64,000 bases of DNA, from positions 17,185,565-17,249,564 of the forward strand of contig NC_049993.1 of NCBI RefSeq assembly GCF_000003815.2. The letters run 5' to 3'. The position numbers and the translations under genes were made by a program. This DNA is from Branchiostoma floridae (taxonomy: Eukaryota; Chordata; Leptocardii; Amphioxiformes; Branchiostomatidae). Within the stretch, counting starts at the first letter, position 1. The number at the start of each line of letters is the position of its first letter. This document shows positions 15,226 through 64,000 of the stretch, in pieces. A model generated the notes under the pieces. It worked only from the letters and a program-made list of their open reading frames with translations, had not been told where the DNA came from and did no database searches.

Positions 15226-15289
15226 AACAACACAGCAACAAAACTGACATTTCATGTACGGCAAAAGGAAATGCGCAAAAATTACTTAC

Positions 15290-18750: not shown

Positions 18751-18782
<32 letters not shown>

Positions 18783-20659: not shown

Positions 20660-20671
20660 AGGTATATAAAA

Positions 20672-20810
20672 ACGATCAACATTGAGTGGGACAATGGAAT
20701 GTGGCTAACATTAGCTCTGCCTTTTTTTATTAGGACTTAATGATCAACATTGAGTGGGACAATGAAATGATCCATGCCTATCTTTTATAAGGACTTAAAA
20801 TGATGTAATT
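20672..20810. repeat. Two direct ~70-bp repeats
   Basis: ATCAACATTGAGTGGGACAA recurs 70 bp apart, each copy followed by AATG and ending near TAAGGACTTA/TTAGGACTTA. 20811-21259 has a LINE-tail motif (GAGCTTCTCATGAATAAACA near 20890) and no recognised exon. Confidence 0.75.
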
Positions 20811-21259
20811 TGTGTCTTTATCAGATCTATCTGTCGCTTCCCTCACCCCTTATGATCTTCATGAAAAGCGGCCTGTGGGCCGATTTGAGCTTCTCATGAA
20901 TAAACAAAGTTTTGCTACTGACACAGTTTAGGCCACGCTAACTTGATTTTATGTGTGACATTCGCGCGCGCATTACTTTTCGACTGTTCTTAAAAGATCT
21001 CCTCCTCATGTCCGGAATAAATTTCCGATTCATATTGCCGCAAAATGGCCGCACAATGAACTAAGTCTACTATATGCATTGCCAGCATGTGCTGGCTTGT
21101 CGCAAACCCTTTGTCTACTATCGCAAAATTTAATTATTTGATGGTTACCATGAATAAATTTTCCAAGTCAAAGAACCTTGGTCAGGTATAGGTACACCTC
21201 CACGAAGTGGTTGATTCAGTCATTTTACTGCAGTCTAAACTTTCTCAATTTTTTTTCAG

Positions 21260-24200
21260 TTCAGCGTCATTCCCCTACGCCATGATGATCAAAACAACAC
21301 AGTCTGCGATCTGATAGTGAATAACGTGGCCCAGGAGATAACACACAGAGATGGTAAGGAAATGCCACTTATTACTGCTTCTTAAAAGTCATAACGTTAC
21401 AACTAGCCTAATTAGTATACTTTAACATACATAGGAATTGTGTTACCAACGGTTTTAGTTTTACGAATCTCCTGTAGATGTACGATTTTGAGTAACATTG
21501 TACCATTTTCATGCAGGAAACCAAGCTGTATTCGATGACCTGGACTACTCCAAAAGGTACTTTTCCATGTCCTAGTTGTCTAGGTGACGTCCATGATTGA
21601 TTCTATAAGGATCACCAATGGCCTTACGTGGTCTTGCATTACCATTTTAGTCGTTAAGTGATAGGTAGATACAACATTCGTGAATAGATACATCAAGTCA
21701 TTGAATAAGGGTGCTATTTTTATACAATCGTTGTTTTATTTCCAACGACGTTTCGGTTACAACATCTGTAAACAGCAACACCTATAGCTGCAGTACAATG
21801 TGAACCATTCAGAACCGCACTAATAATAGAGACTACCGGTCATGAAAACGTCGGTGGAAGGAAAGCAAGGGATGTGTAAAAAGAGTACATTTATTCAATA
21901 TACAAGATTGACCATATGATCATATGCCGTATTAGTGCAGGTAGCTCTTTTAGACAGTCATTAATTTCTAAAGTTCTTATTTGATGCCCTGTATTCTGTC
22001 AGGTTTCTTCATGCTACTAGTATGTGCATATAAATGCATGGGAAGTCTTAAAGTAGATAATGCAGACATTCTTTCGTTAAATTTCTTTATTCATTTTACT
22101 GCTCTTGTCACTACAGGTTTCTTTTCGCCGTGTCTAATAACGGCGAGGTAGTGCGCGTGTTCCATCCCCATGATGAACATCATCACGTGCTGGGCACGAA
22201 GAAGGTCCTGGTGGGACTTCTGTCTGCACGTCTCCATACTACTCCTCAGGTGAGGGGCGTTCTTCGCCTTTTTGGTCCTTCTTCAACCATCCGTTTATCA
22301 ATGTGTAACATTCCCTTACTGGCATTTCAGCACCCGGGTTTGCTCCAACTTCTGTGTAATTTGTGTAAAGATCTGATACGACAATTGTCTGTAGCAAATA
22401 CTCATCGACCATCCTTTTATCAACACTCTGGCAAACCATATGAAATCGATCTATCTCAATGCACAGTCCTATAATCATGTCAAAAACTCGAAGAATATGC
22501 AGTTTATGCAGTACGAGCCCATACAATAAGCCAAACACCAAAACACCATTGCAAACTACAATGGCATCAGGAAGTAATAAAAGTTTCTGGTTGTGAATAG
22601 CTTTTCAGCACCAAGGGTTGCGACAACTCTAGGTATGGCTAGATTATATGAGAGGAGCTGGTGCCAAATAGACCCATTCTCAATGAATCATCGATGTCGC
22701 TGATAAGCAAATCATAATTTTGTTTGATGTTAACGCAACCTTTCTTTCTGTATGTTTCAGACCATTACTCATGGCAAGCCTTGGTCCTACAGTGTGAAAG
22801 AAACTGGACATGAAGGTATGGATCCTTTCGTCTCTGTGTGATTCAAAGCATTCATTAAGTACATTTTTAATTGGGCGCCTCTAAGTCATATCTTGTCTTA
22901 ATGAATTTCCAGGTGAAGATGACCTTACCTACGTGGGCAAGGTCACTCCGGAGGGCATTTTGTTCACAAGGACAAAACATGGTCACTTGGTCCGCAACGC
23001 CAAAGCCAAGAACGAGAAGGTAGGAAGAATGCAGCAAGCATGGGATAAAAACAGCATGGGATAGGCAGCAAATACACTGGAATATCTTTGCAATTCAAAG
23101 TTACAACAGTCATTACATCGCTGCAACGCATTTTGAATAGTCTTTAAAACCGTCAAACACATCATGACTTACAAAAAAAAAACAAGCGGTACTACCTTAC
23201 TTTCTTAGGTGTTAACAGGTATTTCTGTTGTGATTGCAGCAAATTCTCTACCACAAGGATCACGAAGTCCCCCACACGGTCCAAACGAAGGAAACATTCT
23301 CTTCACCAGACCAAGCAACACCAGGGTAAGTCTCTTCATATTGGAATGCTACCTCCTAAAGCTGGAAATGAGCATGCTGGAAATGAGCATGCAAAAGTAC
23401 TTACTTACTTATCCTCTTCATCCCATGTGGGACAACAGTACGAAGCAGAAAATACAAACTGATTTTGATTCAAAAGATAATGATAGTACAGGAGAAGTCA
23501 GTTAATTGCACAATTGATAACCGCACAATTCTATTGATTGCACGGAATTCCCAAATACAAACCGTTGCGGTCTAGCTGAATACCCCGCCAAATGGGATGG
23601 GCAATTGGACGCCTTCTACTGTATTACAGTGCACACTTCGGTCAATTGCACAGAATCCCCAAATCCCGTGGTGATGTGGTCCAACTGGATAACTTCGCAT
23701 TATCGCACACGCCGGATAATTGCACGGAATTCGCTGGCAAATTGGGTGTGCAATTAAGCGGCTTCCATTGTACTCTTACCACTGCTGAGCTCATCTATGC
23801 AGTATTGAGACTAATACTTATGCCCGGTTCAGATATAACCCCAATGCTGGAATACCAGGGAATCCAGCAAAGCTGCAAGAGCTTGAGGACGAGGACTACG
23901 GTAAGTGGCTGTACTTCTATCACTGCTAAACTTTTAATCATCTTTTGATTCTGTATTTATTTCTCACAATGCCAAGCCATACAATGGTCTTGGGTAATGT
24001 TCTTTTCTATACTACAGACTTGCCGTTGATGACAGCTGAATCTGATGGCCATCTGAAGCTCCTGCAGGTCATACCAGCTGACAGACGGGACGGCTACGAA
24101 GATGTTCCTACAGGGTTTAAACATGGATCTCTCGTCATTGATGAGGTAGCTACAGACTACGATCCCTTTCTCCTTATATATAATATTCCAGTCATGCTTA

Positions 24201-26054
24201 CGTTGATGCTTTGGGAGGAGTAATGGGAACACTCGTTGAAAAAGAAACATAGTACTTGCTGCTAACTGGCATGTACAAAAGATGTACGAATTCAATTAAA
24301 GCTGTGTGTGTGCTTATCCACCACTGCATTGTTACATAAAGCTCCTCAATACATTTATACTAAAGTGGAAAGCTATAGCTTGAATGCCAGAACTGCATGA
24401 TATGTACATGTTCTTGTTGCAATTCGTTCACTTTGCGTTTCAGCCCCCAAAACATATCCTGACCCTGGAAGACCAAGAAGACACCATCGTTGGTAACCTG
24501 ACGTGTATGAGAACGGTCAGGCCTAAAGGTGAGCCCTCAACTCACATTTCACGTTTTTATGTGATACTTCTACACACTTGATTGTTTGCTGTCAATTTGT
24601 ACATGTGACACTTTCAGCCTCCTTATAACTACCATCATGGCCGTCCTCTCATCATCATCTTGGGTTGATTACCTATATCCTGGGCGAGTCCATTCGAATT
24701 CTCAACTGCTTCTGATCGTCCGTTGTTGGTTACATTAGACTCAACATCTCTAAAATACGTTCTGGTATATACAAATATCATCTCCAATTCGTATCTTTCA
24801 CATAATCATAGTCATCAGGTGCCACATCATTTACCACCACTCTATCTTTAAACACTACAGAATCCCAGGAGAGGATCACGTGTTTCCATAACATCGTGGA
24901 GGCGCTGCATCACCTATCGTCTGACAATCTTACCACAGTGGCCAACACCTACATACCGGCCAACTCAACCTCGGAGGATGACATAGAGAACCGTGACGTC
25001 ATTGCTGACGCACTCGGCGCCATGGCAACCAACGCCTCCCTGACCCTGCTGACCCAGCTGGTGCTGACGCCTCAGCAGAAGGACGCGAAGCTTGTCCTCA
25101 GGACGCTCTTCCATTTCTTCGGGCTGGAACGTCCGCCGCCTGAGGTATTTACTTTTCAATGGCAACACATTTGTGACAGTTAAAAGTATATATGGCCGTT
25201 GATTTTTATTCCTCGGCAAAAGAACTGAACCAAAGGATTCCATTCAATAACAGAATGCTCGACTAACTTTCAGTAGCTACTGTAAATGCAGAAATGTTCG
25301 CGGTGGTTTTATGTTCGCTGTTTTCGCGTTGGCCACTTCACCGCGAACATTTTTCCATGGCAGTAATAGACTACATTGCATGGTGCTACCGCGAACTTAA
25401 AACCACCGCGAAAAGTCATTTTCCCCGCTCCCACGAAATTAAATCCCCGCGAACTTAAATGCTTATTAGAGTCATACTTGTAAACAGTTCATACTTGAAA
25501 ATTACCATGTGATGTTATGGTTTGTTTCAGATCACCATTGAAACAGTAGAGAACATGTGCTTCAAATGGAAGATTCAGTTTGATGGTAAGTTATCTACTC
25601 AACATCTATCAAAATTCACCTCTGTGACAAATAAGGAAGTCGTAGGTAGGGTTACATAGGTGGGGCTTGGTAAACTATAACTTTGTACTGGTTTCTGATC
25701 TCATATTGAATTAAGTTAAGTTGAGCTGATTTCAATTCTACTATAGCATATGCCGCATTTTATGCTTCTAGTAGTATAGTATTCATAAGTATTGAACATT
25801 CAAACATCAAGCTTAAGTTTATGTTACTGCTGCCACCAGACGAGGAGGACGGTCGGCACGTGTGGACCCGGACACACCTGCTGCTCGGGACTCTGGCGGG
25901 AAACATCCACACCATCGACCCTGCACGGGCTGACGGCATCATAGACAGGCTACACGGGATGGTGGAGACTCACGGTGAGCAAATTCATATTCAACTCTTT
26001 CCTGTATGCCGGTCTCTATATCTTATCCCTGTCTCTGTCTGTCTCTGTCTATCT

Positions 26055-26128
<74 letters not shown>

Positions 26129-29100
26129 CTCTCTTTCTCGTTTAGCTGGATGTATTATCTTCAACTAAGCAAGCTTGGAAATATTCTAATTATGTTCTTG
26201 ATCTAAATTCACATTCCGTTCCCCAAAGACCCATGGAAGCACCGGCAGCTGCGATCCGTGCTGACAGAAGAGGAGTACAGCAGTCACCTGCACGAGAAGG
26301 CCACGATCCTGGGCGCCCTGGGGAACGCCGGGATGGACAGGTCCTATGACTACCTGGTGTCCTACATAAACAGTACTGACGCACCTTCTGTGCTGAAGAG
26401 GACCAGCATGACCGCGCTGAAAAGCTATGATCATCAGAAGGTAAATAAAACCCTACCAAATCTTTTATCTATTTGACTACGGTGCATTTTAATTCATTAC
26501 TTGAGGAAGAAGGAATTATAATTTTCAGCACAATGGAGAATGGCAGGTTACTTTCGCATCAATCAAAATGTAGTAGTAGGCATCCGTTCATCTCGAAAGA
26601 TCAAAATATATCTCTTAGAAAAAAGTGTTTCTAAGCATGAGACTTTCTTTTGATATCTTTCAAATCGAAAAGGTAGAAATGGATTAATCCGTTAATCTCT
26701 CCTAATCCGCCTAATCCAGTTCTTTAATCCTATCACACGACAGGCAGCAGACGAGATCCTCCGTGTGGCACTAGAGGATCCGGACGGCCACGTGCGGTAC
26801 GCAGCCGCTCTGGACTACCTGGGACATCCCCGGGCAAACCAACTGTGGACGGCTCAGCAACAAATCAACGATAGGTACGGGTTACGAAGGATCAAATCTT
26901 GTTCCAGCTGAAGTAAAAGAATAATGTGTTTGGTCTAAAATATTTCATACAATAGATGAAAATAAATATCTTGTCTGGTGTCCTTGTCTATAACGTAACA
27001 ATACAAACTTTGCAATCCTACATCTATCTGCTTGTCAATCTTCAAGTTCAGTTGCACTGACATTTTTCTACCTTTTATGTTGATAATGTTATGGTTCGAT
27101 TAATGATTGTTTCCAGATATCTGAACCAAACGGCCATCGCAGAAGAAAGAGAAAGGAGGGGACTGACGGACGTCATAGAAAAGATAGAAAAGTTGTTTAA
27201 GCCCTTCCACTTCAAGCTGGAGACGCCGAGCATGGACTGGCACAAGCGGATCGGCTCCAGCAAGGTGGGCGCGTCCATGGGGCTGGTCATCAGGAACGAG
27301 ATGGAACTGGATCTGAGTGAGTTCAAGTCTTACTACCGGCGATTTTCTATAAAACCGCCAATATTTTGAGACTATCAATGTTTTGTCATCTTGTGACGTG
27401 TTAAAAAATATATTGTGACATATTTGAAAATGTTATAATATGGCCGGAAAATGATATCCTTCTTTACACATTGCCGAAACAGCAAAAATGTCAGCGAAAA
27501 ACAATTTGCAGTATTTGTGATCGTGAGCAAAAAAAAGTAACTGGCATGTGATTAGAATAGCTGTTATTGGCCTATTTCTATGATGGAAATTACGGGTCTG
27601 TACAAAAGTCCTACTTGGCTTTGCCCCTCTACATACAGGTCCGCTGAGAGGAGGGTTTTATGTGGACGCACTTGATATGGCGTATGCCAAGGTGCATGTG
27701 GGGATTATCGGAATCGATTACAAATTCCTGGATGCGAGAGTCTGCTTCAAGGGAAAGGCGCAATACGAATTCAACATCTTCCAGGTATGGCAGCTATTAT
27801 TTTGTGCAAATGTACCCTAGACTATCTCTAACATTTTGACATGTATTGAGCCAACTGCATGTATATGTTTCATACATACTGTGTCCATGATGTCCTGAGC
27901 CTACCACTGGACAATAGCTTGAGTAAAGGCAGCTACAAGTGGATCCAGTAAGCTCAAAAGAACTGCATTGTAGGATATTTAATTCATTTGCATTGGCAGA
28001 TTCATATGTTATGATTTTCAGATTGAAGTCAAACAAATGAACAAGAAAATTGTTGTGAACGCAGAACTTTATAGAATTACGTCATTTTTATGCATGCTGA
28101 GCTCTTGCTTATAATTTCATTCTGCAGGAGTTCAACTTTGAAGAGGTTTTCCGACTGGTTAAGCTGTTTGACCGCGTGATCAACCAGGTCGTTGGGAACG
28201 TTAAGAACAACATCATCCGTTTCAAGCAACTTCTGGGAAGGTAAGCTAATGTATTGTCACCTGACGCCGTAACAAAAATATACATATCTGTAAATCTAAG
28301 GCAGGCATGTTCAGGTAGATGTAGATCATATGTAAAAGTTCTTATGTTATGACTTTGCACTCGTCGACAACCAACCAATATGGAAAACACAATGACTGCA
28401 GAATAATGCCAATATACACAGAATATCTCTGGCCGACAAAACACTATGCATAACCCAAGCAAAAGGAGAAACCTAAACCTTATAGATGGATCTCCACTTA
28501 CATGATATTGTATCTAGCATTTATACCAGTACGGATGGGGACTAATTTGACAGTTTAGCAAAACCGTAACTACACCAGTCTGTGAATTGCTGTAGATCCT
28601 AGCAAATTGCATTTATAGCTATAGTGTACTACTAGAACTTTTATGATAGTGACGTGATAACCCAACAATTAATACTCTTTCAATAGAACCACTGGCTCCA
28701 TAGACGGCATCTTCCGGGACATCATAGAAGCGGTGAAGAACCTTCCTAACCAAGTTCGAGAGTTCAGAGTCAAGGCCAAAGAGTTCATCCGAAAAGCCGG
28801 GGAGTACACCAACCTCCCTCCGGTCGTGGAAAACGTGAAGCAAGTGGTCCAGCGTGTCAGCACGCTCATCAGTGACGTCAAGGCCGAAGTCATGGAGTTC
28901 TACAATGTACGTATGACACATCAAGTTCTCACGCCTACTCAGTTGATGTTGTTGTCCTTGTTTTATGTCTAATTCTCCACTAGACGTGGGCTCATGGTGC
29001 TCATGATTGTGTAAGCGTCACCTAGTATGTATTCAGCATTTCGTCGCGTCTATTTCTAATTTGCCTATCACAATGAAAAAAAAAAACATCGGAAAGTAAC

Positions 29101-32100
29101 GTGGCGAAAGCTGGAAGCTTGTCTCAAGTTTTCAATACTTTTTTTCTCCATTTCTTATTGTACAATCAATTCAACCGCTAAAACTTTCACACCGCTCTAT
29201 TGGATACCAATCTTTCCCAGGTACTTGATTGCCATTCATTTCTAGGCCTGCCATTCTCTGAACTAAAAATAGAACAATTAGGCATTGTCTATGATTGTGA
29301 ACTAAAAATCTTTACACACTCGACGGACAGTTCCAGGTCTCACAGAACATCATGTAGAGCATGAAAGCTAAGAGAAGGAGAGTGTCAACTTAGTTTTGAC
29401 AAGAGGCCCGTAATGATAATGATGTTGGTTCATTCATTCATTGTTGTTCTACAGTCCATCGTAGATGCAGTCACCATCACGCTCCCCTGGGCTGCCGACC
29501 AGATCAAGAACGGTGTGAAGATGATCGTCTCCTCCATCGGGAAGCTGATCAGAACACCGAAAACTGCTATAGAAGACATCTTCAAAGGAGTAACAATGTG
29601 AGTAGCAATGGCCTGTATGTGTAATCAATAGGACTGAAGAATACCAATGGTTAAGTTTCCATCATGATGGGTAAAATGTTCTTTGTGATTACATTTGTCC
29701 GATAAGATGTTTTATCTTTTTTTTCAGGATCAAGTTTGCAGTGAGGGGTGTCATTGAGGCAAAGGAGCGAATTGAGAAAGCTCTCTTGTTCAACGAAGGT
29801 ACGTTTGACCAATACAACTACTCCGCCGATAGTGTATAATTATATAATGAAGTTAGTCCTGACGATGACCAAGAACCACAGTCTTCAGTACGTCATGTTT
29901 GTATATTGGCGGGCATTTATTTTCTATAGAAGATTCAAAACTGTCATAATTCTAATACCTCTAAAGTATAATTAGCTTAAACCACCATAGGCCGCATCCG
30001 ATCTTAAGCAGACAATAGGTTTGGTCATGGAAGGCACTGGCATCTTCTTTGATGACTGACCATTAGCCTATGCAATCGTGGCCATCTCTATCACACTTTG
30101 TGCCAGTGGTCTTCTTCTGGTTTCTTGAATCTGGCAGTGTCTGATTCTTTAACCATGTTGGAATAGCTTGTCTCCACGTTGAAAGATGAGGTGACGCTGC
30201 CTCTCAGGAGTTGACATCGACAAATACAATAATTTTAAACAGTGCCTTCAAATCACGATGTTTATTTTGAATCCCAGACAAGACGCTCCATTGGATGAAC
30301 CTGCGAGAAGATCTGACACAGATCGGTGATGACATCTCTGTGGCGTGGGACTCCCTCCTGACGCTGGACGACTGGGCGCTGCAACAGGTGGAGTCTACGG
30401 ACTTCACCAGGCGTTTCTTTGGAATCGACATTGTAAGTTGTTATCGGCTTTATTGTAACTACAAGCCAGAAAAAATAAACATATGCAACACATTGTGCAG
30501 AGACGTTAGAGTCTTTCCTCGCCAAATATACGCCTCTGTGGCCTCTGTGTTGTAAAGCCTTGCAAGAACTACTAAAGTAAGGGACAAGTCCACTGCTAGT
30601 GGCATGTATTCAACTTTTGTTACCATTCCGCATATGCTGAATACTTGGCCGAATAGCCACACCACGTGAGAGTTATACCTATGTAGCTGTCAGCTATCTA
30701 TTTATTACCGGGTCCCTGGTTAATCTTAAGTTCAAATCAGATTCACCTGATTCTTGAGTGGGCCCAAAATACCCCAGTAGCCGTAAGGGAAGTGGGGTCA
30801 CGCCCAATAGTAAAAGGAAATCCGTGAACTGCCCGGCAAGGCCTATTTTTCCAGATGGAACGTAAGCCTAAGTGGGTAAAATACTTGTCTGTATACAAAG
30901 AATACTGTAAAGCTGTATATGTTGCTGTTTCAGAACGCAGTGAGACAACAGATTGTGAATGAGTTGCGTGAACTGATGAACGGACTTCTTGGTCCCGTAC
31001 AAGAAGTCCGGCGGATTCCCGATATCTTCCTCTCCGCGTTCGAGGAGACGGTGGACATCATCAAGTCCATCAAAGACGGCTACCAGGCGATTAAAAACGG
31101 GTAAGTCACCGCTGTCGGACATAATTCGATGGCCCCCAGACAAATAGATGCGTACCAGAATTACCAACCAAGGATTGATGTGTTCAAAAATTCGGATTTC
31201 CTCAGAACTATCATAGAGTGAATTCATTATCACCAAGCACAGTAGGGGTATCTTCGTTGGGTATTTTTAAAGGAAATTTGTAGATGGATGTGCAAAAGCT
31301 AGGTTAGAACGTTAGCAAGCATGCGATTTCGAATGCAACCGAAAAATCATTTCAAGCACATAGATGACCTTTAAAACTAGATACTATCAACGGACGAATT
31401 GCGACAACTGTGGCCATCAGGCGGTCAGTATTGGTAATGTCAAAGGTCAAATATAGGTCAGCCTTCTTTACCTGATTACACATGTATTGTCATATTCCGA
31501 GTCACTATGATTCCTAATTACTTGTGATACACACAAACATATGCCTTCTTTCCCCATTTTAGTTACGACGAAGCTAAATCCCTGATTGAACAAATCTTCG
31601 GGAACAAGGCTGACCAGGATTTCCCCAGAAAGTACCTGGAGTCCGACTCCTGTGGAGACGGTTTCTACCCGAGCACGGGACAGGGGCGGTACGCTGAACA
31701 AGGGGTGCTTCTGGAGGCAGCCGCCGGACAACAGGTAAGCAAGTGTTTACTCTTCATGGCTTACGTATCACGTCTTCAATATTTCCAATATTTGATCACT
31801 CAAGCTTTACATACTTAATGGGGACCATTTTTGACAGTATCATGCAAGCAACGTATATATCTTGCTAGATACTTTGTGATCCATATCGTAACCAACTAGT
31901 GTCGAGACAAACTTTCAGGTATTTTCCAGTTCGCTTCGTTTTACGACGTCTTTTCCTCACATGCAGATGAATCAACTGTAAAGGTACATATTTATGGACA
32001 ACCATAACCTACTTCTAAAGCAAAATCTTCATTATGACTTTCCGGTGAGATTGAAATCTGCTTTCACAAGCTTTATTTGTCCATGTTCAACTTAACTTTT

Positions 32101-53100: not shown

Positions 53101-56100
53101 CCAGTGTACTTGAGCTGACATTGTTCTGGCATCAGCTATCGGGAAGCATTAAGTTTTGCATCACTAGAGGACAACAGTCTAAGTCTTATGGTGACATGAA
53201 AAGATTCAATGACACTCGTCAGGAATATGATGCAATGGACTAACAGCGTATAGCACAGCACATGGCAATGAGGAGATGACTAATTAGCTCTTAACTGCAT
53301 TTACAGCAAAATCTAGGAAGAAACTCACAAAAGATTTTCTACAACAACCAGTTACTCTTTTGACGATTGTTGTAATGACAAGCCTTTCTGCCTTGTCTGT
53401 CTAGTGGACCTGAGAACAGCCAGTCATGCACCTCGACCAATCATAGTGGACGTGACTCCGCCCATCCCGGGGACAGTCCATGACGGGGAGACCTACAGCA
53501 GGGACCGCGCCTTCCAGGCGGTGGGGAACCGGGTCTGTGCCAGCTGGAAGGACTTCCATGATGAGGAGAGCGGCATTGGTAACTCTCCTTTTACTAAAAA
53601 TCTCTACAATAGTCAACCTAACTACAGATAAATACTTGGCATTTTCTCGAGTTCATCTAGCTGACAAGTGTTCATCTAAGGTTTCATGCTTTAACGAATT
53701 AGGTTTTAGAAAGATGCTATTAGATATTGCTTTTGATTACAACAAGGACAGAATGCACTGGTTTTATGATATTCTTTCCATTCATGTTAGGTTTTTACCT
53801 GTGGGGAGTGGGCACGTCAGTCGGTGTAGACGACATCGTCTCATTTCACGAGCTGCCGCACACCCAACACGCCGCTTGTGCTGAGCTGAACCAGACCCTG
53901 CAGCACGGCGGGACCTACTACAGCACTCTGGTCGCCTTCAACCTGGGGCATGCCAGGAAGAACGTGTCTGTGTCTAGCAATGGAGGTAAATAAAAACCTA
54001 ACCCTAACCCTAACCCTAACTACATGTATCACCATAACCATAACCCTATTACAGCACCCTGGTTGCCTTCAACCTGGGGCATGCCAGGAAGAACGTGTCT
54101 GTGTCTAGCGATGGAGGTACGTACGACAACCCTTTCTAACAGTTGCCAGGTGTTTTGAGTAAGCAATTGCCAGTGTTCGATGGACTTACTTTGGGGCAAA
54201 TGTTTCGAATATATATGATGGCAAAATATGATGAACAGTAGCAAAAGCAATAAAATCAATGCACATCAACAATGTTGTGGGATGTTATAAACTTCGCGAA
54301 ACATTAAACTTATTACTGATGTCACTTATCTGTAAGACCAAGTGTCCCAAATGGACTTGATGCTAACAGCAAGATTCAGATACATGTAGCTTGAAAGTTC
54401 ATCTGTGTTGGTAGAAGTCATTGTGGATCAAAAATGATTTGCAATTTTTGACACAAAAATTGGACTCATTCAAATTTTGTGTGTTGGAAATTACAGTTCA
54501 ACCTTGCTCAGCAGATCCAGACAGACTTAAGGTCTTGCTTATGGTACTGGCACAAAATTTAGTGTTTTTCTGCAAAAATGGTTGATGTTCTATTTCGTTG
54601 TTTCCAGTGATGTACGATGCCACCCCACCGGAGGAAGGCTGGGTGAAGGACGGACTTGACCCGAACCATGACGTCACGTACTCGTCAGAACTCGCGAGCG
54701 TCAGCGCGATCTGGGGAGACTTCCGGGATCCGGAGTCTGACATTGCTGACTATGAAGTTACCGTGTGGAGAAGACTCTCCAACAATGGCAAGTGTCTCGT
54801 TCTCACCATTCTCATCTACTATTATATGATCTAGCAAAAGACAAGAGGCAGTGGAAAACAATGCTAGCCTGCTTCAGTGCCAGTCTGATAAGTGGCAGTG
54901 TTGATGATCTCTTGCCAATATGAAAGATTTCTAAGTTTAAGAATTCTTTGCATTGTTTTTTACTTTTCTACCCATAAATATAAGAGTGCTTCTTTTAAAA
55001 GATGTCTGTAAGGACTTCATTTCTTCTTGTTAAACAGGTAACAGCAGTGCTGATACTGCTCCTCACATCATTCATGAAGCGACCTCTGTTGGAAAGGAAG
55101 CGAACAGCATCAACTGGCACCACTTCCACCTTCATGACGGAGACTTTGTGTACGTTGTTGTGAACGTCTCGAACGGGGCAGGCAGCGTTGTCTTGACTGA
55201 GTCGGACGGGTACACGCTGGACACTACCGCTCCTGAGATGGGCTTCATCGGAGATGGTAGCCAGGCAGGGACGGACCTTCAATACTCGGTAAGGCATCAA
55301 TCTTACACTTGCGGAGGCGATGTGATAGAATTCAGTGTTTTACAAGTTAGTTTTAGTTTCAGTTCTCAGCAAAGAAGCAGCATAAAGTAAGATACCCGAC
55401 TTAAAAACTTTGGAGAGAGGTAAAAGAGCTCTACCAGACTGCAGAAAGCAAGTCTCTTTTAGCCATAAAAAGTAATAGAAGTCATTTTTTTTCAAATTGG
55501 TATTATCACAGCCAAGCGTCACAAATCTGTCCGTGAACTGGGAGTTTGAAGATGTGGAGTCTGGTCTGGACCACTACAAACTGGCCGTGTTCCAGCATCA
55601 GGGAGGAAGCCGTCTGCAGATCCACCCGGCACAGAAGTTAGTGAACATGTCCTACCCTTCTGTTTCAAGTTGGCAATTTGTTACCTTTAGTTAGTAATCA
55701 TGTTTTTGCTTCCATTGATTTAGCTGATAAACAGTTTGTCTCAAGAAGCTGGTTCGATTTTTTGTAACACTAGAATTAATAGACTAAGTGTGACATTTCA
55801 TACCTAATACTCTATTATGCTCCTGGTTACCGTAGTGACTACCTTAAATTCCAGTTGAATAATTAAGGGTTAATGACCCGCCCCGAGGTGTATATGGTGT
55901 CATAACGCCTGGTCCTTTGCTATAACCACCGAATAAAACCACCGAGTGAGCGAAGCGAACGAGGTGGTTTTATGAGGCCTGGTCCTTTGCTTATAACGCC
56001 TGATCCTTTGCTATAACCACCGAATAAAACCACCGAGTGAGCGAAGCGAACGAGGTGGTTTTATGAGGTGGTAATAGCAAAGGCCCAGGCGTTATGACAC

Positions 56101-59100
56101 CATATATACCGAGGAACAGGCAGGTCATTAACCCTATTATCATATAGCCTACCCACACTGACCCATTTAAGAGTAGAATAGAGTAGAGTAGAGTTTCCGG
56201 TTGAGTAGGAGCGACAAATTCCTTTATAAAACATACATCTTTTATTCAGTACATAAATTTGAACAGTGAATTTGAACAACATAAAACTTGTACGTGAAAT
56301 GTATTTCTGTTCCAAGGCTTGAAATAAGAACAAAGTCGATTCATCATGTTACAACTGTTGCACGCTCCGTATTTCTCTACTCGCCCATTCTCCAGTTTGT
56401 CGTTCGTTCGTATCAGGCGCTAAATCTCTGCCGGCTTTCCTGAGGCATTCCGGGATCCCTGTGCTTCACAGCTCTTGAGAATCTCGTTCACTATGAACTC
56501 AGACACGTTTTCTCCGAAGAAAGGTAGCATTTTGGTCCTCCAGCGCCATGACCGCTACTCAATGGCGGACCGTGGTGTTATTGTCGTCTGAACTTGAATG
56601 GGCGGGGGTGCAAATAATTTTATTTTCCATTTGTAGTTTAAATTGGACATGACTTGAAATAGATTTTATTGTCTTAAATATTATAGGTAATTCAATGTTG
56701 TTTTAAGATGGCAAATGTTTTCTTTGAACAAAGAAACTCGCACTACCGATGTTAATAGAGGGAGCCATCCCCCCTGCCATGCCTGTACTTATTCCCATAT
56801 CTTGGCAGATGGACGATTCCTGGATATCTCATTCTGATTGGCCAGCGTCCTGTTTGTCCTTCTGATTGGTTTAAACTTTCAAAAGTCATTAATGCACACG
56901 TGCAATAATCAAAAATTTAATGCACGGCTGTTACGGCATCATAACCAGCATGAAATGGGGCCTTCTGATTGGCCCACGTCCCCTGGCTATATGATAATAT
57001 ATATTATTATTCAATCTAATCCTGCTGTAACATATAAAGCTGTATTTATAAAATGCCATAAGACCACAAGGTCTCCAAGGTGCCTCTATCAGTTTTTGGT
57101 TGATGAACTTGCATCGCAACAGCAAACACTTTCAAATTTAGGATTAACGTTCTTTGTGTTAAACAGGAATGACTGGGTGATTGTTGAAGGCAGTGCTGGG
57201 GGATGGACCAACAATGAACCGCTGAACCTTGTACCGGGCACGCGGTACAGTGTGCGGGTGTCCGCTGTCAACAGGGCTGGGCTGACGACTACACATGACA
57301 CGGACGGTGTCATCGTGGATCCTACTCCCCCTTCGGTTAGACTACTTCCTTTTTATGTTACAAGTACAGTATTACATTTAATTTAGTTAAAACACAATAC
57401 ACTTTTAGTTTTGGTTTGGGCAGGGATCACCCAGCTATTCCAAGCAAATGCCATTTGAAGCTATCATTATATGGGTAGTTGGCTCCTTTTGTTTGAAGCA
57501 AAATTAAACAGTAACCAATTACTCATTGACAAGCAACTGGATATGATTTTGGAAACGGTCAAACATTTTAGTTCACTAAGCATCCACTACATTTCGTCAG
57601 TGAAACTGTGACATGTTCAATGGTGTCACAGATTAAAGGTAGCAGATGCTACCTGAAACGATCAATTGCTATCTGGCTAAGTTGAAATTCCCAACACAAA
57701 AATGTTGGAACCTAAATTTTTGACTTTCCAAATGTAGTCTAGAATGAGCCATCAATTGCTTCTAACAAAATAAAAATGTGTACCTATGATGTCGCTGTAG
57801 AATCTACATGTTGCCATTGACGTGATGCCTGGTGAGCTGGAGGAGCTGTACGATGGGTATATTCTACACACTGACCTGTCCGCCATCTTGGTGTCATGGC
57901 GGGCCACTGACGGGGAGAGCAAGGTCACGGCGTACTGGGCGGCTCTGGGGACGTCACCAGGTTTGGACTTCTGTTTCATTGGCATGATGGGGTGGTCGGG
58001 TTGTTTGAACAGTGCTTAGACATAAGCCGTCATGCTCTTAGTTTTGCGTGATCTCACCAGGTTTGTGCACTTAGGCATATATGAACATTTTGTACTTGTA
58101 CTATTGTGTAGTTGTACTTTGTATGTTGTATGTGTACTGGTTGTTCAGTGTAATAAAACCAGCTACTGTGCCACATGCCTATGAAGGTGGTGTGTTACGA
58201 CAAAGGCCAGTTAAACCTGCTATATAGATACAGAAACAGATGGTATTGGTAGAAATACTGATTTACAATTATGATGTTTGCCATACAAAAGATTCCCCTC
58301 AGTTGTTTTATTTCATCTTGATCTATATACATGGACCCAAGAGAGTTTTCAACTAAATAATTATTCATTTATTCCTATTGACAGGTGGCACTGACGTCAT
58401 GCCGTTCGAAAACATGGGAGCCGACAGAAGTGCCTACATCAACAACCTGCAGCTGCAGCTGTACGACGAGGTCACGGGGTCACCTGTCTACTATGTCACA
58501 GTAAAGGCACAGAACGGGGCTGGGGCATTTTCTACTGAAGTGGTTTCAAGGTAAATTTAGCAACTTGTTGCAATATCTTATCTGCTTTGTCCCGTGGTAC
58601 GTAAAAAAAGAAAATAAGTGACCAGGAACTAGTTTTGACAAGAATATCAAGGTTCGATGAATAGATTTCTACAGCTTGGATTGGAAATAAACAACTCCAG
58701 TTCATAGCTGCAGTTAATAACCTTTTATCTTAATTCAAAGATCATGAATTGTCTGTTGGCAAGACAATTAAGATTATGATTATTAGAAACTACAACCTTG
58801 TAATTAGTCATCTTGATATGTATTGAGTTTTATATTTTGTTTGCATATCCTAGAATTCCAGAAAGTGTATCAATACTTGTTAATGGAGATCCGAACAAGC
58901 AAAGAAAGAAAGTCTCAGTCTATTTCACTTTTATCCCAGCCCGATTAAGGTAGTCCCCGGTGATAAGGCGGGAGTGGTTGTGGACGGCCCACACATGGCG
59001 GACAGCCAGGCTGATGACGTGGCCACAGTAGACGTGGACTACCAACTTCACACGGGCACTGTCACTGTGCGCTTCAAGGTTAGTTTGTAGGGGACATTTG

Positions 59101-62100
59101 GACAGGCTCAGGCTTATATGCTTAAGAAGACTTCTGTTCTAACTTGGTGAAACAAATGTCACTTAATCTGAAAAACGAAGGCAATGCTTTCAGAAGATCG
59201 GGGAAGACATCTTTTGCTCTCAAGGAAGTTGTCAATGAGGAAAATAGTCACAGTTACTGTAGGCAAGTTGATACTAAGGGATAACGAAAAATTCGCAGTG
59301 GACATGATGGTTATGATGGTTTGCAGAGGATGTCACAGCTTTATGAATGTCATTTGTTACACATAACTTTTTGGTAACCAAACAAGTTACAATCTTTATA
59401 CAGGGATTTGAGAGTGCGAGACATGGCATTGTGCACTACGAGTGGGCGGTTGGTACTGCCGCGCTCTGGGATGACGTACAGCCGTACTCATCTGCAGGGA
59501 TAGTGCTGTATGAAGACAATGCTGACATGGAAGGTAAGAGATGCTACAGCATACATGAGATCTAGTGGCAAAGTGACTAGTCCAGTGGTAAAATACTGTA
59601 CACAGCACCTGTCTTCTGTCATTACTTAGACCTTAGACCTTAAGTCTTCCTGTGCCGTAAGGCACATAAGGCAGCAAGCTTCCATCGTCCTCTGTCGTTT
59701 GCAGCCATTTATGCCTGTACCCAAGGGATGCCAGCTCTTTTCAGATCCTCAGTGAAAGTCCTCCTCCATGTGTTTTTGGGTCTGCCTCTTTTCCGTTTTC
59801 CACCTGGAGGAATTCAAGTCATGGCTGTCATTACTTAGTGGACGATTAATGCTCTTCAGTGAGCTAAACTGGTTTGATATCACTGTCACCTTTTTTGTTG
59901 ATGGCAGCGATGATTGTCTCTTTGCTTTTAGAGGATAGAACATTATGAATTTAAGACCAAGGACTGTCATTTTGCATGTGTGACCTGCATAACTATGGAG
60001 GAGAAGACAGATAAGGTTTGTCAAGATTTAGAAAGCATTCTGCTATTGTGGAATATGGGAATCATTATCTGATTCATGCTTAAGGTATCTCGGTTGGCTA
60101 AATTGGCATTTTGACCTTCCACTATTTTGTTATTAATGAATTAAGAAAGAATGGAGCCGTAACGAATGTTGATAGATGGGCATTAAAGAATTCTAAATCT
60201 GATTTTGTGGGGGCCAAATTGATGACGTCATCATTTTTATTGCCTCTGATATTATTTTTTTCTATGACAAAATACAGCACTTTGGTACATACCACTGTAA
60301 TGAAACTTCGTTTTTCGTTGCATAATGATAAAAGCTACAAAGTCACGGTTGCGCAAACTGATATTTACTAACGATCTGTGGTTATTAAGAATTAATTTTT
60401 TTTAATTAGATGAAAACAAACATTTTCTAATTACAACAGATCGTTAGTAGATATCAGTTTGCGCAACCGTGGCTTTGTAGCTTTTATCATTATGCAACGA
60501 AAAACGAAGTTTCATTACAGTGGTATGTACCAAAGTGCTGTATTTTGTCATAGAAAAAAATAATATCAGAGGCAATAAAAATGATGACGTCATCAATTTG
60601 GCCCCAAAAAGTCAGATTTAGAATTCTTTAATGCCCATCTACCAACATTCGTTACGGCTCCATTCTTTCTTAATTCATTAATAAGAAAATAGTGGAAGGT
60701 CAAAATGCCAATTTAGCCAACCGAGATACCTTAAGTTTAGTTTGACAATGGTATTTCTGTATACTGTCTGTATGTATAAAGTTCTTGTAAACACAACCAA
60801 CTTGAAGGTAATACTCATATCCAACGTCACAACTTTCCAATTACCAACCTGATGAAATTATTTGCGGATGTCTGTATGTATTTTTCCTTTTCTAATGTCT
60901 ATATTGTCCTGTGTTTCCCTGTTCGTAAACCAAAGAAAAACAGGTTCTTGACCATCTAACACAAGACAGGTAAACTGATGTTTGTGGTACTCTAAAATCT
61001 CCACAGGAATCGGGGGAGAAGGCCACGCCCAAGCCCTGCTGCCCCTTCGTCCTGGACAGCTCTACTACACAACAGTCCGGGCAATCACCGGCGCTGGGGA
61101 CATCCTAGAGTCATCGTCAGACGGCTTCACTGTAGACGTCACGCCTCCACAGGTGTGTGGAGGATTGTATGATTATATTAGATTACCAATCACAAGGAAC
61201 AACAGCGGGAGGAGGACATTTAATTACAGATCAGTTAAACTGTGGAATCTTCTATGTATACGCAGAGATTTCAAGATTGTCTTCAAAACACGATTGTTTA
61301 GGAGGATGATAGACCAATTTTTTGGATCATAATGGTTTTAGTGTACATAACCCTCTAACCTCACTCATGATTTTAAACATAATGTAATATGTAATATTTT
61401 GTATCTAAGTCTGATCTGTTTTGAGTGGATGTTATTGTATCTGTTCCTGTATTTGTCAGAATGTATAACTTCTTATTTGCATGAGCCCTAGAAGATTAGC
61501 CCAATCTGAGCTAAAGGGCTGATCTCAATAAACTCATATTCAATAAACTCAACTCACAGATCGACTTCCTCGGCTTCGGTGTCACGTCTGAAGATGAAGA
61601 GTTCACCTTCGGGCCTGACATGTCGCGGTACCAGCTGTCAGCAGACTACATCACGGCGGAATGGGGCTACAGGGAGGAGGAGAGTGACGTGGTGTTCGCT
61701 TCGTTTGCGTACGGAACGTTCCCAGGCAGCCATGACGTGTATAACCGGACTGTGACGAGCCAGAGGACATCGGTGCCAAATGGTCGGGTGCATCCATCGA
61801 CACAGGGGCGGCCCAACATCCTCAGCCTTACGGCAATCAACTCCGTAAGATTTTTTTCATTATCATTAATAGATGTAGATTACAATCTGCTTTAAGGACA
61901 GAGGCGGCAAATGGATGGATGGATGGATGGAGGGATGGATGGATGGAGGGATGGATGGATGGATGGATGGATGGATGGACGGACGGATGGAAGTATTTAG
62001 CAGCTCTAGATGACTAACCATATTATGCAACACACCAGCAGGCATGTGCACATCATGGCATCAGCTGACCTTACATGTAGTGCTAATGAGGGTTTTTCTT

Positions 62101-64000
62101 ATGTGCTTTAAGTGGTATAATCAAACTTGACATACCAACCAAATAGAATGGAAAGTGCCATTGAGGCCAAACCTTTGTTTTTCTTCCCTTATATGTAGGT
62201 ACATATGTAGGTGTATGATGATATTTTTAAAACCATTTCAGGTCGGCCTGCGCACTGTTGCCCTTTCCCCAAGTCTGACGGTAGACTCGACCACGCCGGA
62301 GGCTGGTGACGTCATCTGCCCACGTCACATCCCCGGCACAGACGAATTATCCTGCACCTGGCACGGCTTCCGGGACGAGGAGAGCCACATCCACCACTTC
62401 CTGTTCGGGGTCGGCACGGAGGAGGGAGATGACTCCATATTCCCATTCACGAGGGTGTCGGGGAAAGCGGACAGGTTCAAGGCCAAAGGTGTACCTTCCG
62501 TTGCCTTCAATATGGTATCCGTAGCATTTGCCATGAGGGATGTAGTCATGATTAGCATTAATTATCCTTCTAAGAAAGAAAGGATGCAAATGTATGGAAT
62601 TACTGTAGATAGGCCAGAGTAGAAACTTTAAGACAATTTTACATTATACAACAGGAAAGAGATATTTGCAAAGAAAGGGACACCAGCATTTGACCTGAAA
62701 ACAATGCAAATCAGAGAGAAGGGGATGCATGAGGGTTGATGATGAGTTACTTTTTCTTTACTACTTGTGAACTATTGGTTCAGGCCTTTGCAGTAAAAGC
62801 TCTTAGGAGGGACGTGCTGTAGTCCTTAATGTCAGATTTCTATTATCTACCTCATGTGCAAAAATGTAATAATTATTGTATTGTTTGAAATCCTAGGATT
62901 TGCTGGACAGTTTTTGCGTCACCAGGAAAGCTACTATGCCACAGTGATCGCGTATAATGCAGTGGGAGGGAAAACATCAGCCTACTCAGAGGCGATCGTT
63001 GTTGATGACACCCCACCTGTTCCTGGGACTGTGGTGGAGCTGGACAGTATCTACCATGCTGACTTAGAGGGGGATGATGCAGATGGTAGAGGAAAGTGTG
63101 ACAATGAAGAAGGTAATTTTACTATGCAATTACATGTACCTAATATTAGAATGCTAAATTATCATAATTCAATCATGAATGTTTGATCAAGATTTTTATT
63201 GTAGAGATTCTTTCTTAAATATTGCTGCTTTATCAATAGACCAATTGATTGATTGACTGATTTACTTATTGATTGATTGATTGGTTGGTTAGTAAGGTAT
63301 CACTAGCTTCTTTTCAGAAAATGATATTAGCTGGAAATCCAAGCAGCCAGATTCTGCATATTGAAAAAAACTACATCCTGTATACAACAGGGGAGCTAAT
63401 ACCTGTATCCCTAAAATTAATGAGGAATTACACAAACTGTGAATACTGCCCATTGCAAAGACATAATTATAGAGATGTTTTCTGATTGTTTCAGACTGCC
63501 AGGAGATGGATGCCAGGTGTCAGGCTTCTGTCAGTCAAGTCACTGTTGCCTGGCAACCATTCATGGACCCAGAGACACCGATCATCAGGTGGAAATTTCT
63601 TTTTATATCAACAATCATTCATTTAAAATTAACAATATGATTGTGCAATGCACTGTACACAGCCACTGTACAGTGTACTTTGTGTACAAATGTAAGTACT
63701 AGCATGTCAAAAATAGGCTGGCCCTAATAGCCACAGGCTGCGCCCTGGTTGTGCATGCTGAACAGCCAAACCAATAAATAAATGAATAAATGTCAAACAT
63801 TGCAGACAAAATTTCAATTGAAGATGCCATGGGTGATACAGGTAATTTGGATAGGATGATCCAGACCAAGTCAAAGACACTCATATTCACACACTTTCAT
63901 GTATTTAATGCAAAAAATGGCTGATCTATTTCAGGTACGAAGTAGCTGTAGGAACTGTGCCAGGAGCAGCAGACCTGCACAGCTTCCACCAGGTTCCCCA
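21260..64000 (+). CDS. Giant large-lipid-transfer-protein gene with LECT2-like, PAN and TPP-repeat domains (63 exons, 3' end outside)
   Basis: Sixty-three plus-strand exons were assembled by following AG/GT sites with matching phase; only exon 34 breaks the frame. They encode about 3,118 residues in the window. Order: LPD_N/vitellogenin_N lipid-transfer module (1-653), helix-rich part (653-943), LECT2/M23-like domain (about 970-1105), RKKR site (1144-1147), Cys-rich beta domain, RRKR site (1405-1408), second beta unit, FN3-like unit, PAN/apple domain, then about ten TPP-type FN3-like repeats to the end. LPD_N proteins bind lipid (vitellogenin, apoB, MTP); the C-terminal part suggests adhesion or recognition. 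The N-terminus is incomplete: about 60-80 residues of LPD_N and the signal peptide are not found. I know no named gene of this architecture. Introns not listed separately hold no recognised gene. See block entries for exon positions. Confidence 0.85.
25278..25465. mobile_element. MITE with TACTGTAAATGCA ends
   Basis: Inverted structure built from GTTCGCGGTGGTTTTA and its complement, ends TACTGTAAATGCA / ATTTAAGTTCGCGG. An opposite-oriented relative is at 35635-35850. Confidence 0.7.
26058..26124. repeat. (CT)n microsatellite
   Basis: About 67 bp of uninterrupted CT, 80 bp after the exon 12 donor. Imperfect CTGTCT precedes it. Confidence 0.95.
28128..31100 (+). other. Exons 17-22: helix-rich amphipathic segment
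   Basis: Exons 28128-28240, 28687-28906, 29455-29597, 29728-29798, 30278-30432, 30934-31100. About 290 residues dominated by charged/hydrophobic alternation without Pro or Cys ([73 protein letters not shown]). Long amphipathic helices, possibly lipid-associating as in apolipoproteins or a coiled stalk; no named domain recognised. Confidence 0.65.
31145..31305 (+). mobile_element. Decayed LINE coding fragment
   Basis: [16 protein letters not shown] followed by frame breaks; same segment as 16720-16903. Confidence 0.6.
31563..32824 (+). other. Exons 23-25: LECT2 / M23-peptidase-like domain, zinc site degenerate
   Basis: Exons 31563-31734, 32109-32240, 32642-32824. [20 protein letters not shown], then [29 protein letters not shown] and LVDPTRF follow the order of LECT2 and M23 beta-lytic peptidases (Cys-Gly start, HQGVD, APF-x-G-x-I, KG-x-x-LGT, HVH, DPT). 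Of the three zinc ligands, the first His is Glu988 and the Asp is Leu992, while H-x-H (1063, 1065) remains. Hence probably non-catalytic; LECT2 itself binds zinc but is a cytokine, so a binding role is plausible. This is a remote match made by eye. Confidence 0.65.
32943..33165 (+). mobile_element. tRNA-derived SINE
   Basis: Box A-like TGGTGTAACTGG (32954) and box B-like GAGTTCGAGCC (32998), followed by the body CCTTGGGAAAGGCATTTAAC and ACCTGACTTCGGTCGGGGAG. A sister copy at 42962-43075 shares the head and CCTTGGGAAA body. Not a functional tRNA gene. Confidence 0.75.
34325..34435. repeat. Short foldback element
   Basis: TGAGTACCATCCCTCCGGAG (34331 on) pairs with ACGGAGGATGGTACT near 34420-34434, with partly complementary inner sequence. 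A 24-bp direct duplication (AGTTTATCCAACCTCGTCTTGA, twice) follows at about 34505-34555. Confidence 0.6.
35635..35850. mobile_element. MITE, relative of 25278-25465
   Basis: Ends TACTGTAAATGCA and TGCATTTACA; interior TTCGCGG motifs in inverted order. It abuts the exon 28 acceptor region (35870) within 20 bp. Confidence 0.7.
37490..37600 (+). mobile_element. LINE 3' tail
   Basis: CGATGAAAAGTGGCCTGCAG...GAGCTTCTCATGAATAACTA matches the tail near 20850-20910. A minus-strand relative lies at about 50305-50395. Confidence 0.6.
38268..39452. mobile_element. 1,185-bp element with 8-bp target duplication
   Basis: Flanked by CAAATTCG at 38260-38267 and 39453-39460, within a repeat whose uninterrupted copy exists next to it. 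Ends carry inverted GTCCAGAAANGGG. Interior is the 60-bp minisatellite and related inverted GTACGATGTACG arrays (39095-39300). No transposase. Eight-bp duplication fits hAT-like non-autonomous elements, by inference. Confidence 0.8.
38401..38885. repeat. 60-bp minisatellite, about eight copies
   Basis: Exact 60-bp period with TTAGTACAGAGGGGCAGGGT and a GTACGAT triplet in each unit; very low divergence. Because 60 is a multiple of 3, it creates a 171-codon ORF with a 20-residue period. Confidence 0.95.
39712..40041. mobile_element. Foldback element with AGGGTTCTAGC ends
   Basis: Starts AGGGTTCTAGCTAG, ends CTGGCTAGAACCCT; both sides have TTTTAGCGTNGTGG. 40042-41100 shows AT-rich intron sequence and no recognised gene. 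Confidence 0.75.
41688..41888. mobile_element. ~200-bp MITE
   Basis: Inverted ends AGCAGAGGTTAGGCTCCGGC and the complement near 41867-41886; T-rich and A-rich inner arms. Confidence 0.8.
42962..43075 (+). mobile_element. tRNA-derived SINE, truncated
   Basis: Box A TGGCATAACTGGTAGAGCG and box B-like GGTTCCGAGTTTGATACCC, then CCTTGGGAAAAGCACTTTAA. Relative of 32943-33165. Confidence 0.75.
45335..45850. repeat. ~190-bp diverged tandem repeat, three copies
   Basis: Copies start near 45341, 45536 and 45718, each with TTGAACTTTG/TTGAGCTTTG, CTTCAATATA, CTTTTAAA and a CCTRTGGG segment. Confidence 0.7.
46038..46100 (+). pseudogene. Partial duplicate of exon 37 with stop
   Basis: An AG acceptor and CCATTTGAGAGCGG start identical to exon 37 at 46267, preceded by duplicated intron (GCAATTTAACATTT). 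The frame then reads [17 protein letters not shown] and stops at 46098-46100. Confidence 0.7.
46267..48322 (+). other. Exons 37-40: FN3-like unit
   Basis: Exons 46267-46395, 47091-47183, 47568-47774, 48175-48322. Reads ...[41 protein letters not shown], then [20 protein letters not shown] with an H-D-P-H-D tail. The pattern of a 'Y-x-V-G-T/V' strand and a 'P-x-Y-F-T-V-x-A-x-N' strand is the same as in the later repeats, so this is probably the first, diverged repeat. Confidence 0.55.
48799..48974 (+). other. Exon 41: PAN/apple-type domain
   Basis: Single exon with [35 protein letters not shown]. The spacing C-x3-C-x7-C-x-SF-x-Y...C-x-L is that of PAN/apple domains, which bind proteins or carbohydrates. 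The outermost cysteine pair is not visible, so it is a short form. Confidence 0.65.
49137..49535. repeat. 44-bp minisatellite, nine copies
   Basis: GGAACAGGCCTGTCNTTGGT recurs at 49143, 49187, 49231, 49275, 49319, 49363, 49407, 49451 and, degenerate, about 49493. A single copy lies in a distant intron at about 52710-52755. Confidence 0.95.
53997..54020. repeat. Telomere-like (CCTAAC)4 tract
   Basis: Four perfect CCTAAC units, equal to TTAGGG on the other strand, starting 12 bp after the exon 49 donor and followed by CATAACCATAACCC variants. Confidence 0.9.
54050..54116 (+). pseudogene. Duplicated 3' half of exon 49
   Basis: ACAGCACCCTGGTTGCCTTC to GGATGGAG plus GT donor repeats 53920-53985 with few changes. 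The upstream half of the exon is absent, and splicing after exon 49 would shift frame. Confidence 0.8.
55866..56135. mobile_element. Foldback element with internal 81-bp duplication
   Basis: Ends AGGGTTAATGACC and GGTCATTAACCCT, with GGTGTCATAACGCCTGG inside. The core ACCACCGAGTGAGCGAAGCG is present twice in direct order. Confidence 0.8.
57510..57685. mobile_element. Diverged MITE, relative of 9514-9787
   Basis: CAAGCAACTGGATATGATTT, GGAAACGGTCAAACATTT and TTTCGTCAGTGAAAC match the element in Gla gene B. Confidence 0.65.
60079..60735. mobile_element. 657-bp near-perfect palindrome
   Basis: Arms of about 308 bp (60079-60386 and 60428-60735) are almost fully complementary, with ends CTTAAGGTATCTCGGTTGGC. 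The loop is about 41 bp. Non-coding foldback element in the intron after exon 57. Confidence 0.9.
61165..61545 (+). mobile_element. 5'-truncated LINE filling an intron
   Basis: [40 protein letters not shown], stop, then tail CAATCTGAGCTAAAGGGCTG and AATAAACTCAT repeats. Confidence 0.7.
61912..61985. repeat. (ATGG)n microsatellite
   Basis: About 74 bp of GATG/GATGGAGG units after the exon 59 donor. Confidence 0.9.

Follow-up and report, generated by a model that had tools for sequence, protein, structure and literature searches.

A predicted giant membrane protein with a large lipid transfer protein-type head, recurring at ten loci in Branchiostoma floridae

The locus and its exon chain

The window analysed here (C15:17185565-17249564, 64,000 nucleotides of the Branchiostoma floridae genome) lies inside a predicted gene of about 104 kb that extends from C15:17174610 to about 17278272; negative positions and those above 64,000 are window coordinates outside it. 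The region from 15 to 124 kb was modelled with a gene finder based on splice-site matrices and codon bias, with no homology. Its first training set was 24 ORF pieces chosen by eye from this region, and its own output served for a second round of training. A weak exon penalty produced 227 exons for 20.5-64 kb, many of them small, and a stronger one a single phase-consistent plus-strand chain of 119 exons, from 17751 to 110232, that runs on past the window edge at 64000. We retained 103 of the 119 (21265-92659), dropping three before 21265 and 13 after 92659. The original prediction, made from the letters of the window, had counted 63 phase-consistent exons, and the homology-free chain agrees well with it (62 retained exons start and 61 end inside the window), the count depending on the penalty. 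The coordinates given then, 21260..64000, do fall inside the gene and are incomplete, as the coding gene extends from about -10954 to 92708. The acceptor of the chain is at 21265, and later runs took the earlier 21260, phase 0. A final exon with a stop at 92708 fits the chain, and an AATAAA lies at 93370.

The predicted protein has about 5,200 residues (5121 in the window model), a length made uncertain by a few doubtful exons. From N- to C-terminus, the predicted order is a signal peptide, LPD_N (Vitellogenin_N), amphipathic helices, a LECT2-like M23 domain, a Cys/beta block and PAN, and after these about 18 FN3-like repeats, cadherin/Big_9-like domains, EGFs, one transmembrane (TM) helix and a tail. 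The features are as follows.

About -10954 to -10787 (C15:17174610-17174777, locus L009), plus strand: exon 1 with ATG and signal peptide, found by a flank scan
1..21259, plus strand: part of intron 1 (about 32 kb as a whole), with exon 1 upstream of the window
21260..24528, plus strand: N-terminal (N-sheet side) half of LPD_N in the gene model, 9 exons, all nine aligning in order in the C17 copy
24861..26874, plus strand: helical (HEAT-like) domain of LPD_N, 5 exons, part matched by Vitellogenin_N
27117..27316, plus strand: exon opening with a furin-type site, RERR/GL (motif R-X-[KR]-R-G), model residue 547
27639..31100, plus strand: one post-helical exon, then an amphipathic alpha-helix block, 7 exons in all, conserved in other copies
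31563..32824, plus strand: LECT2-like M23 domain, 3 exons, HxH kept, first His and Asp replaced (PF01551, 31.1 bits)
33642..36015, plus strand: linker exons and a second furin-type site, RKKR/D, model residue 1139 (21-bp exon at 34754 doubtful)
36607..42715, plus strand: Cys-rich block (CLGVTCC) and next exons, including four conserved ones at about 37602, 41127, 42324 and 42645
44281..47183, plus strand: beta-rich exons, parts of which match at all ten loci
47568..48322, plus strand: exons between the beta block and PAN, partly FN3-like
48799..49874, plus strand: PAN/apple-type domain (PAN_1)
50488..64000, plus strand: FN3-like (DxTPP) repeats, about ten starting here (fn3, repeat HMM; exon 61897-61992 a simple repeat, doubtful)
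Beyond the window to about 84.5 kb, plus strand: further FN3-like repeats
88367-90000, plus strand: cadherin/Big_9-like exons, then EGFs
90369-90538, plus strand: TM exon, by hydropathy
91239-91377, plus strand: tail exon with FLNPAY (AFLNPAYERM)
92529-92708, plus strand: last exon, stop at 92708

The four conserved exons of the Cys-rich stretch were absent from the first model. Doubtful exons left in the 5121-residue model are those at 34754 (no match in the comparison with the neighbouring copy), 61897-61992, 64901, 86355 and 86443, together with exon 54055, which duplicates the last part of 53791, and a run of five 54-bp exons, nearly identical to one another, at 81646-82388. These five (GDNSSIAVYWEGYDKESE), spaced 161-183 bp, repeat the end of exon 81342-81517, and they may be a recent exon-carrying tandem repeat that varies among individuals. 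Tandem repeats in introns at 38411-38929 and 49143-49522, with units near 60 bp and 88 bp, mimic short exons and open frames. A rerun of the model with conservation gave 134 exons, several of them small and probably false, and this count was not used.

Exon 1 lies 11 kb before the start of the window, and its phase-0 end matches the acceptor at 21260. The same exon is present at C15:17081008 (minus strand, 95% identical) and C17:4928806 (minus strand, 70%), in both cases upstream of exon 2 of that copy; as a query it was matched at three of the ten loci described below, with no match at the other seven. A second signal-peptide exon, 92% identical, lies at C15:17163341-17163526 (plus strand), about 11 kb upstream of exon 1, and is presumably a duplicated or alternative first exon, or the remnant of a gene.

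Other coding sequence lies on the minus strand. Within intron 1, window 11520-16289 contains a Kringle exon (16047-16289, 106 bits) and two SUEL-lectin exons (11520-11785, 74 bits, and 12795-13085, 83 bits), which we interpret as a gene or genes nested on the opposite strand. Downstream of the window, open exons at 66582-67374 look by eye like remnants of a LINE-type endonuclease; the one exon scanned had no Pfam match at E<=0.01. Protein kinase exons at 107525-114365 (Pkinase, 53.6 bits on two exons) probably belong to the next gene downstream.

Domains of the head, stalk and membrane end

The original prediction had named a Pfam HMM search of the predicted protein as a check of its domains, and in this search Vitellogenin_N, Peptidase_M23, PAN_1 and fn3 each scored over their cut-offs. 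On the N-terminal 709 residues of the window copy, including exon 1, Vitellogenin_N (PF01347) reaches 30.7 bits (cut-off 24); in a 1780-residue segment it reaches 21.9 bits, below the cut-off. HEAT_2 scores 30.2 bits in the same copy. Six of the ten copies were scanned for Vitellogenin_N as spliced proteins, built after removal of predicted exons in C14- and C2 (three each) and in C19+ and C4 (one each). The scores were 28.7 bits in C17, 55.8 in C14-, 38.9 in C2 and 26.7 in C4, all above 24, and 19.8 in C19+, below it, the match falling mainly on the helical half of the profile. The N-sheet-side half by itself had no significant Pfam match. By its N-terminal LPD_N/Vitellogenin_N module, the protein carries the feature of a member of the large lipid transfer proteins (LLTPs). 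An exon-by-exon search of the genome with PF01347 gave 27 matches, none of them at the ten loci. A PDB sequence search with the LPD_N part returned mostly artificial HEAT-repeat proteins and no LLTP structure, with weak matches to the proteasome subunit RPN2 and to pesticin at E 0.35 or worse.

Near the end of the helical domain, a furin-type R-X-[KR]-R-G motif was found at all of the seven loci, out of ten, that were read. In the window, neighbour, C17 and C19+ copies it lies in exons aligned to the window exon. The C4 site is in an exon predicted without support from homology, and the C2 and C14- sites are in open frames read from the unspliced DNA that separates the flanking exons. The window model contains four R-X-[KR]-R motifs, compared with an average of 0.87 in shuffled versions. 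The second site, RKKR, is common to both C15 copies, the two that were read there.

The amphipathic block that follows comprises about 290 residues (model residues 651-941) with a helical moment of z=8.6 against shuffles, compared with 0.1-0.6 in five other regions. ApoLp-III matches to it are weak and far below the family cut-off (E=0.0044 in the window, 0.041 in C17 and 0.061 in C2), and ApoLp-III was not listed for the C14- or C19+ block; a coiled coil is an alternative reading of these helices. A scan at E<=5 did not recognise the open beta-sheet of the LLTP lipid cavity (PF09172) in the post-helical part of the spliced window, C17, C2, C14- or C19+ copies, nor in the window Cys/beta block. 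An exon-by-exon genome search for PF09172 at E<=0.1 gave 23 matches, none at the ten loci, and is a weak test by itself because the same kind of search with PF01347 also missed these loci. It is possible that a PF09172-type sheet has diverged beyond recognition. Neither VWD nor DUF1081 is among the Pfam matches at E<=0.1 in the 5121-residue window model.

Peptidase_M23 (PF01551) scores 31.1 bits on the window domain alone (cut-off 28.7) and 20.1 in a long segment. Nine copies were aligned, C4 being omitted because only its last M23 exon was found. PF01551 matched seven of the nine at E<=1 (best 1.9e-12), giving an M23 fold by profile. Against PDB, the nine-copy profile found LECT2 as its nearest solved relative (9non, 5b0h, E=5e-5), and the window domain alone found nothing convincing (best E=0.29). 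The zinc ligands of M23 peptidases and LECT2 are a His, an Asp and a second His. In the window copy the HxGxD part of the motif, the source of the first His and the Asp, reads YAEQGVLLE, so that two of the three ligands are lost and HxH is kept. The C14, C2 and C19 copies keep the Asp and have lost the His at this motif, and the motif is YKHQGVDLE in one C18 exon copy, which has a single His of HxH. Both C15 copies, the C17 copy and both C19 copies have HxH intact, unlike those of C18, C14, C2 and C4. The domain thus appears to be conserved more as a fold than as an enzyme, and with two of its zinc ligands lost the window copy is unlikely to be an active metallopeptidase. The C18 copy (C18:8311560-8314150, L034) has its first M23 exon in duplicate, with the His and Asp of the zinc motif retained in one of them.

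Downstream of the linker, model residues 1262-1632 have a beta moment of z=2.8, and a Pfam scan of the beta-rich exons, from CPDL to VYAS, gave no match. PAN_1 scores 23.7 bits (cut-off 21.4) on two exons of the window copy, 18.4 and 17.7 in long segments, and 28.8 in the C4 copy. In the stalk, fn3 scores 39.7 bits in one stretch and 23.4 in the next, below the cut-off of 25. A repeat HMM trained on the window protein itself marked 22 FN3-like segments at i-E<0.01, or about 18 after fragments were removed or merged, and 12 of the segments start in the window. At the end of the stalk, Big_9 scores 46.8 bits, Cadherin_5 27.6 and EGF 20.7, the last just below its cut-off of 21.5.

The model contains a single strong TM helix (hydropathy 3.2, next highest stretch 1.47), in an exon 77% identical in the neighbouring copy. 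A single-pass TM helix with an FxNPxY tail was found in these two copies only, reading FLNPAY in the window and FDNPAY in its neighbour. Of the five tails or 3' pieces that were read, those of C17, C4 and C18 do not show the motif, each of these three being 2.4-2.7 kb long and perhaps short of the complete tail. By eye the C18 piece resembles a sushi domain, and together these differences suggest that the ends of the family have diverged.

Recurrence of the layout at ten loci

The whole genome was searched with four queries (LPD_N helical, M23, Cys/beta/PAN and cadherin-EGF-TM) at a threshold of E<=0.001. Matches to the LPD_N helical query numbered 35 and fell at ten loci on seven contigs. C15, C14 and C19 have two loci apiece, and C17, C2, C4 and C18 have one; C14+ and C19- are each defined by a single match. 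All 22 M23 matches (27 of 27 candidates scored) belong to these ten loci, where they follow LPD_N on its own strand at a distance of about 7-16 kb. All 77 Cys/beta/PAN matches lie there as well, downstream of M23 on the same strand, and since 76 of 105 candidates were scored, a site elsewhere may have been missed. The cadherin-EGF-TM query, with 87 of 1051 candidates scored, gave 114 matches, mostly to EGF alone. Eight of the ten LPD_N loci have a match to its non-EGF part, on their own strand and 41-70 kb downstream, and among the candidates scored both C19 loci had only an EGF-region match, 94-100 kb downstream. C4:23190900 carries the C-terminal module with no LPD_N match, and C4:32836368 has an isolated 37-residue match to the last part of the tail. 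Six of the ten loci are arranged as inverted neighbours, in a head-to-head pair on each of C15 and C19 and a tail-to-tail pair on C14.

In the comparison of the window with its inverted neighbour, 35 of 44 exons examined aligned in place, including exons across 31.5-46 kb. Left out were e1, e4 and e5, which matched the wrong place, and e2, e3, e6, e27, e43 and e44, which had no match; all of these nine but e27 lie outside the DNA compared, and the overall total, which includes the three wrong rows, was not used. In 34 aligned exons dN/dS was 0.03-0.67, and one was saturated, suggesting that purifying selection acts across 31.5-46 kb. Between homology-free models of five other loci and the window, 45 of 53 homologous exon pairs agree in phase at both ends, neighbouring exons not being independent.

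The gene models of lancelets are known for false fusions (PMC4967905), and the same layout could arise if a secreted LPD_N/LECT2-like gene (about 21-34 or 21-45 kb) had been joined to a neighbouring PAN/FN3/cadherin/EGF membrane gene. The weakest point for one gene is the gap at 37.3-44.3 kb: when 102 introns were scanned for a stop-plus-start boundary with our own crude scoring, the intron 37317-44281 scored highest, at -1.9. However, no intron scored above zero, the four additional conserved exons fill this gap, and among the best 14 of the 102, the two that fall within 31.5-46 kb offer starts only two residues long. One of these 14 has a hydrophobic start, at 91389 in the last intron, after the TM exon. 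Moreover, all ten LPD_N loci retain M23 and Cys/beta/PAN in the same order and on the same strand, and the C14-, C2, C19+ and C4 heads are just 35% to 41% identical to the window head. The loci therefore look like old duplications, a pattern poorly explained by two separate genes that were repeatedly duplicated together, and a layout that recurs ten times looks like one old gene design rather than an accident of gene prediction. From the boundary scan and the linkage at ten loci, we judge a split into two genes very unlikely. The single chimeric gene of the original prediction, with an LLTP-type N-terminus joined to LECT2-like, PAN and FN3-like domains, is thus upheld at the genome level, by this linkage and by the conserved exons at 31.5-46 kb, which make transcripts that end before 31.5 kb or begin after 46 kb, the case first set against it, unlikely.

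Possible function and relation to known proteins

Given its cadherin-like domains, EGFs, TM helix and tail, the protein is predicted to sit on cells, most likely as a furin-processed type I surface receptor or adhesion protein rather than a secreted lipoprotein. The reading that we favour, with some reservation, is that of a type I membrane protein of about 5,200 residues from a ten-locus family, made as a proprotein that a furin-like protease would cut just after the helical domain, with the cut head either remaining bound or being released. The LLTP head, the LECT2-like domain and PAN would together form a binding tip atop a very long stalk. Where an NPxY tail is present, it may couple the receptor to clathrin adaptors, through which bound ligands (lipoprotein particles, matrix or microbial surfaces) would be taken up. 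The lack of NPxY in the C17, C4 and C18 pieces suggests that such uptake may not be general. The terms "lipid-transfer protein" and "lipoprotein" used at first find no backing, as PF09172 was not found in five spliced copies or, by the weaker genome search, at the ten loci. With the TM end and no recognised PF09172, a classical secreted lipoprotein is unlikely.

The other readings that accept one gene differ in what the head does. It has a real, if distinctly smaller, chance of being purely a cell-cell or cell-matrix adhesion molecule in which the LLTP head and LECT2-like domain are protein-binding modules, with neither endocytosis nor lipid involved. Most of the protein consists of FN3-like, cadherin-like and EGF repeats, a composition that, together with the unrecognised PF09172 and the tails or 3' pieces in which NPxY was not seen, would fit such a role, whereas the strong amphipathic helix block adjoining the head and the FxNPxY of two copies would not. 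The helices and the furin-type site found at every locus read bear also on a soluble lipoprotein, in which an apoLp-II-like head and its helices would carry lipid after release and the membrane part would serve only as an anchor during biosynthesis; apoLp-II/I and decapod apolipocrustacein are reported to have a functional subtilisin-like site in a similar location (PMC1783640). However, after the first cut the helices would still be attached to the membrane part, their release would require the second site (RKKR, residue 1139), and no cavity sheet is recognised. We regard this reading as improbable. Somewhat less doubtful, and still speculative, is the idea that lipoprotein and endocytic receptor are combined in one chain: a tethered, furin-processed, apolipophorin-like head with a helix block replacing the LLTP cavity, a stalk of about 4,000 residues and a tail signal of the LDLR type. 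If so, the family would be a fourth, membrane-bound branch of the LLTP superfamily.

To our knowledge, the LLTP families are soluble, being secreted or, in the case of MTP, located in the endoplasmic reticulum. The predicted protein differs from them in adding LECT2-like, PAN, FN3, cadherin and EGF domains, a TM helix and a tail, in having no recognisable PF09172 (five copies) and in having no VWD or DUF1081 (window model); MTP also has no VWD. What it shares with the LLTPs (vitellogenin/clotting protein, apoB/apolipophorin II/I and the MTP large subunit; PMC1783640) is LPD_N with its helical domain after a signal peptide, and a furin-type site near the end of the module, perhaps comparable to the subtilisin-like site of apoLp-II/I. 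The same source describes another LLTP chimera, a Daphnia vitellogenin fused to superoxide dismutase (PMC1783640). Compared with LECT2 (leukocyte cell-derived chemotaxin-2), which has the same M23 metallopeptidase fold by profile, with PF01551 above its cut-off, the domain is embedded in a giant protein and its HxGxD part reads AEQGVLL with HxH kept, other copies having degenerated differently.

The type I topology, the EGF modules near the membrane and the NPxY-type tail (two copies only) are also those of endocytic receptors of the LDL-receptor type, including vitellogenin receptors. Unlike these, the predicted protein has no LDL-A or YWTD in the Pfam scan, and the ligand-like LLTP module is carried by the receptor itself. 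All LDLRs are reported to carry at least one NPXY (PMC4394447), and fish vitellogenin to recognise bacteria and a fungus (PMC2277463). A long FN3-like stalk, cadherin/Big_9-like domains, EGFs and a TM helix are shared with giant FN3/cadherin adhesion proteins, from which the predicted protein differs by its LLTP and LECT2-like N-terminus. Such adhesion proteins exist as a class, and similar domain mixes may occur in brachiopods and molluscs. We found no description of the present architecture among titles and abstracts in searches of the open-access literature, which does not by itself make it unpublished or unannotated.

These proteins are best placed as LLTP-headed giant type I membrane proteins, an architecture that is well supported at the genome level. 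Given the problem of false fusions (PMC4967905), the case tests whether a giant lancelet chimera is real. A ten-locus family with an LLTP head on a giant membrane receptor would show that the LPD_N module is also a cell-surface binding domain.
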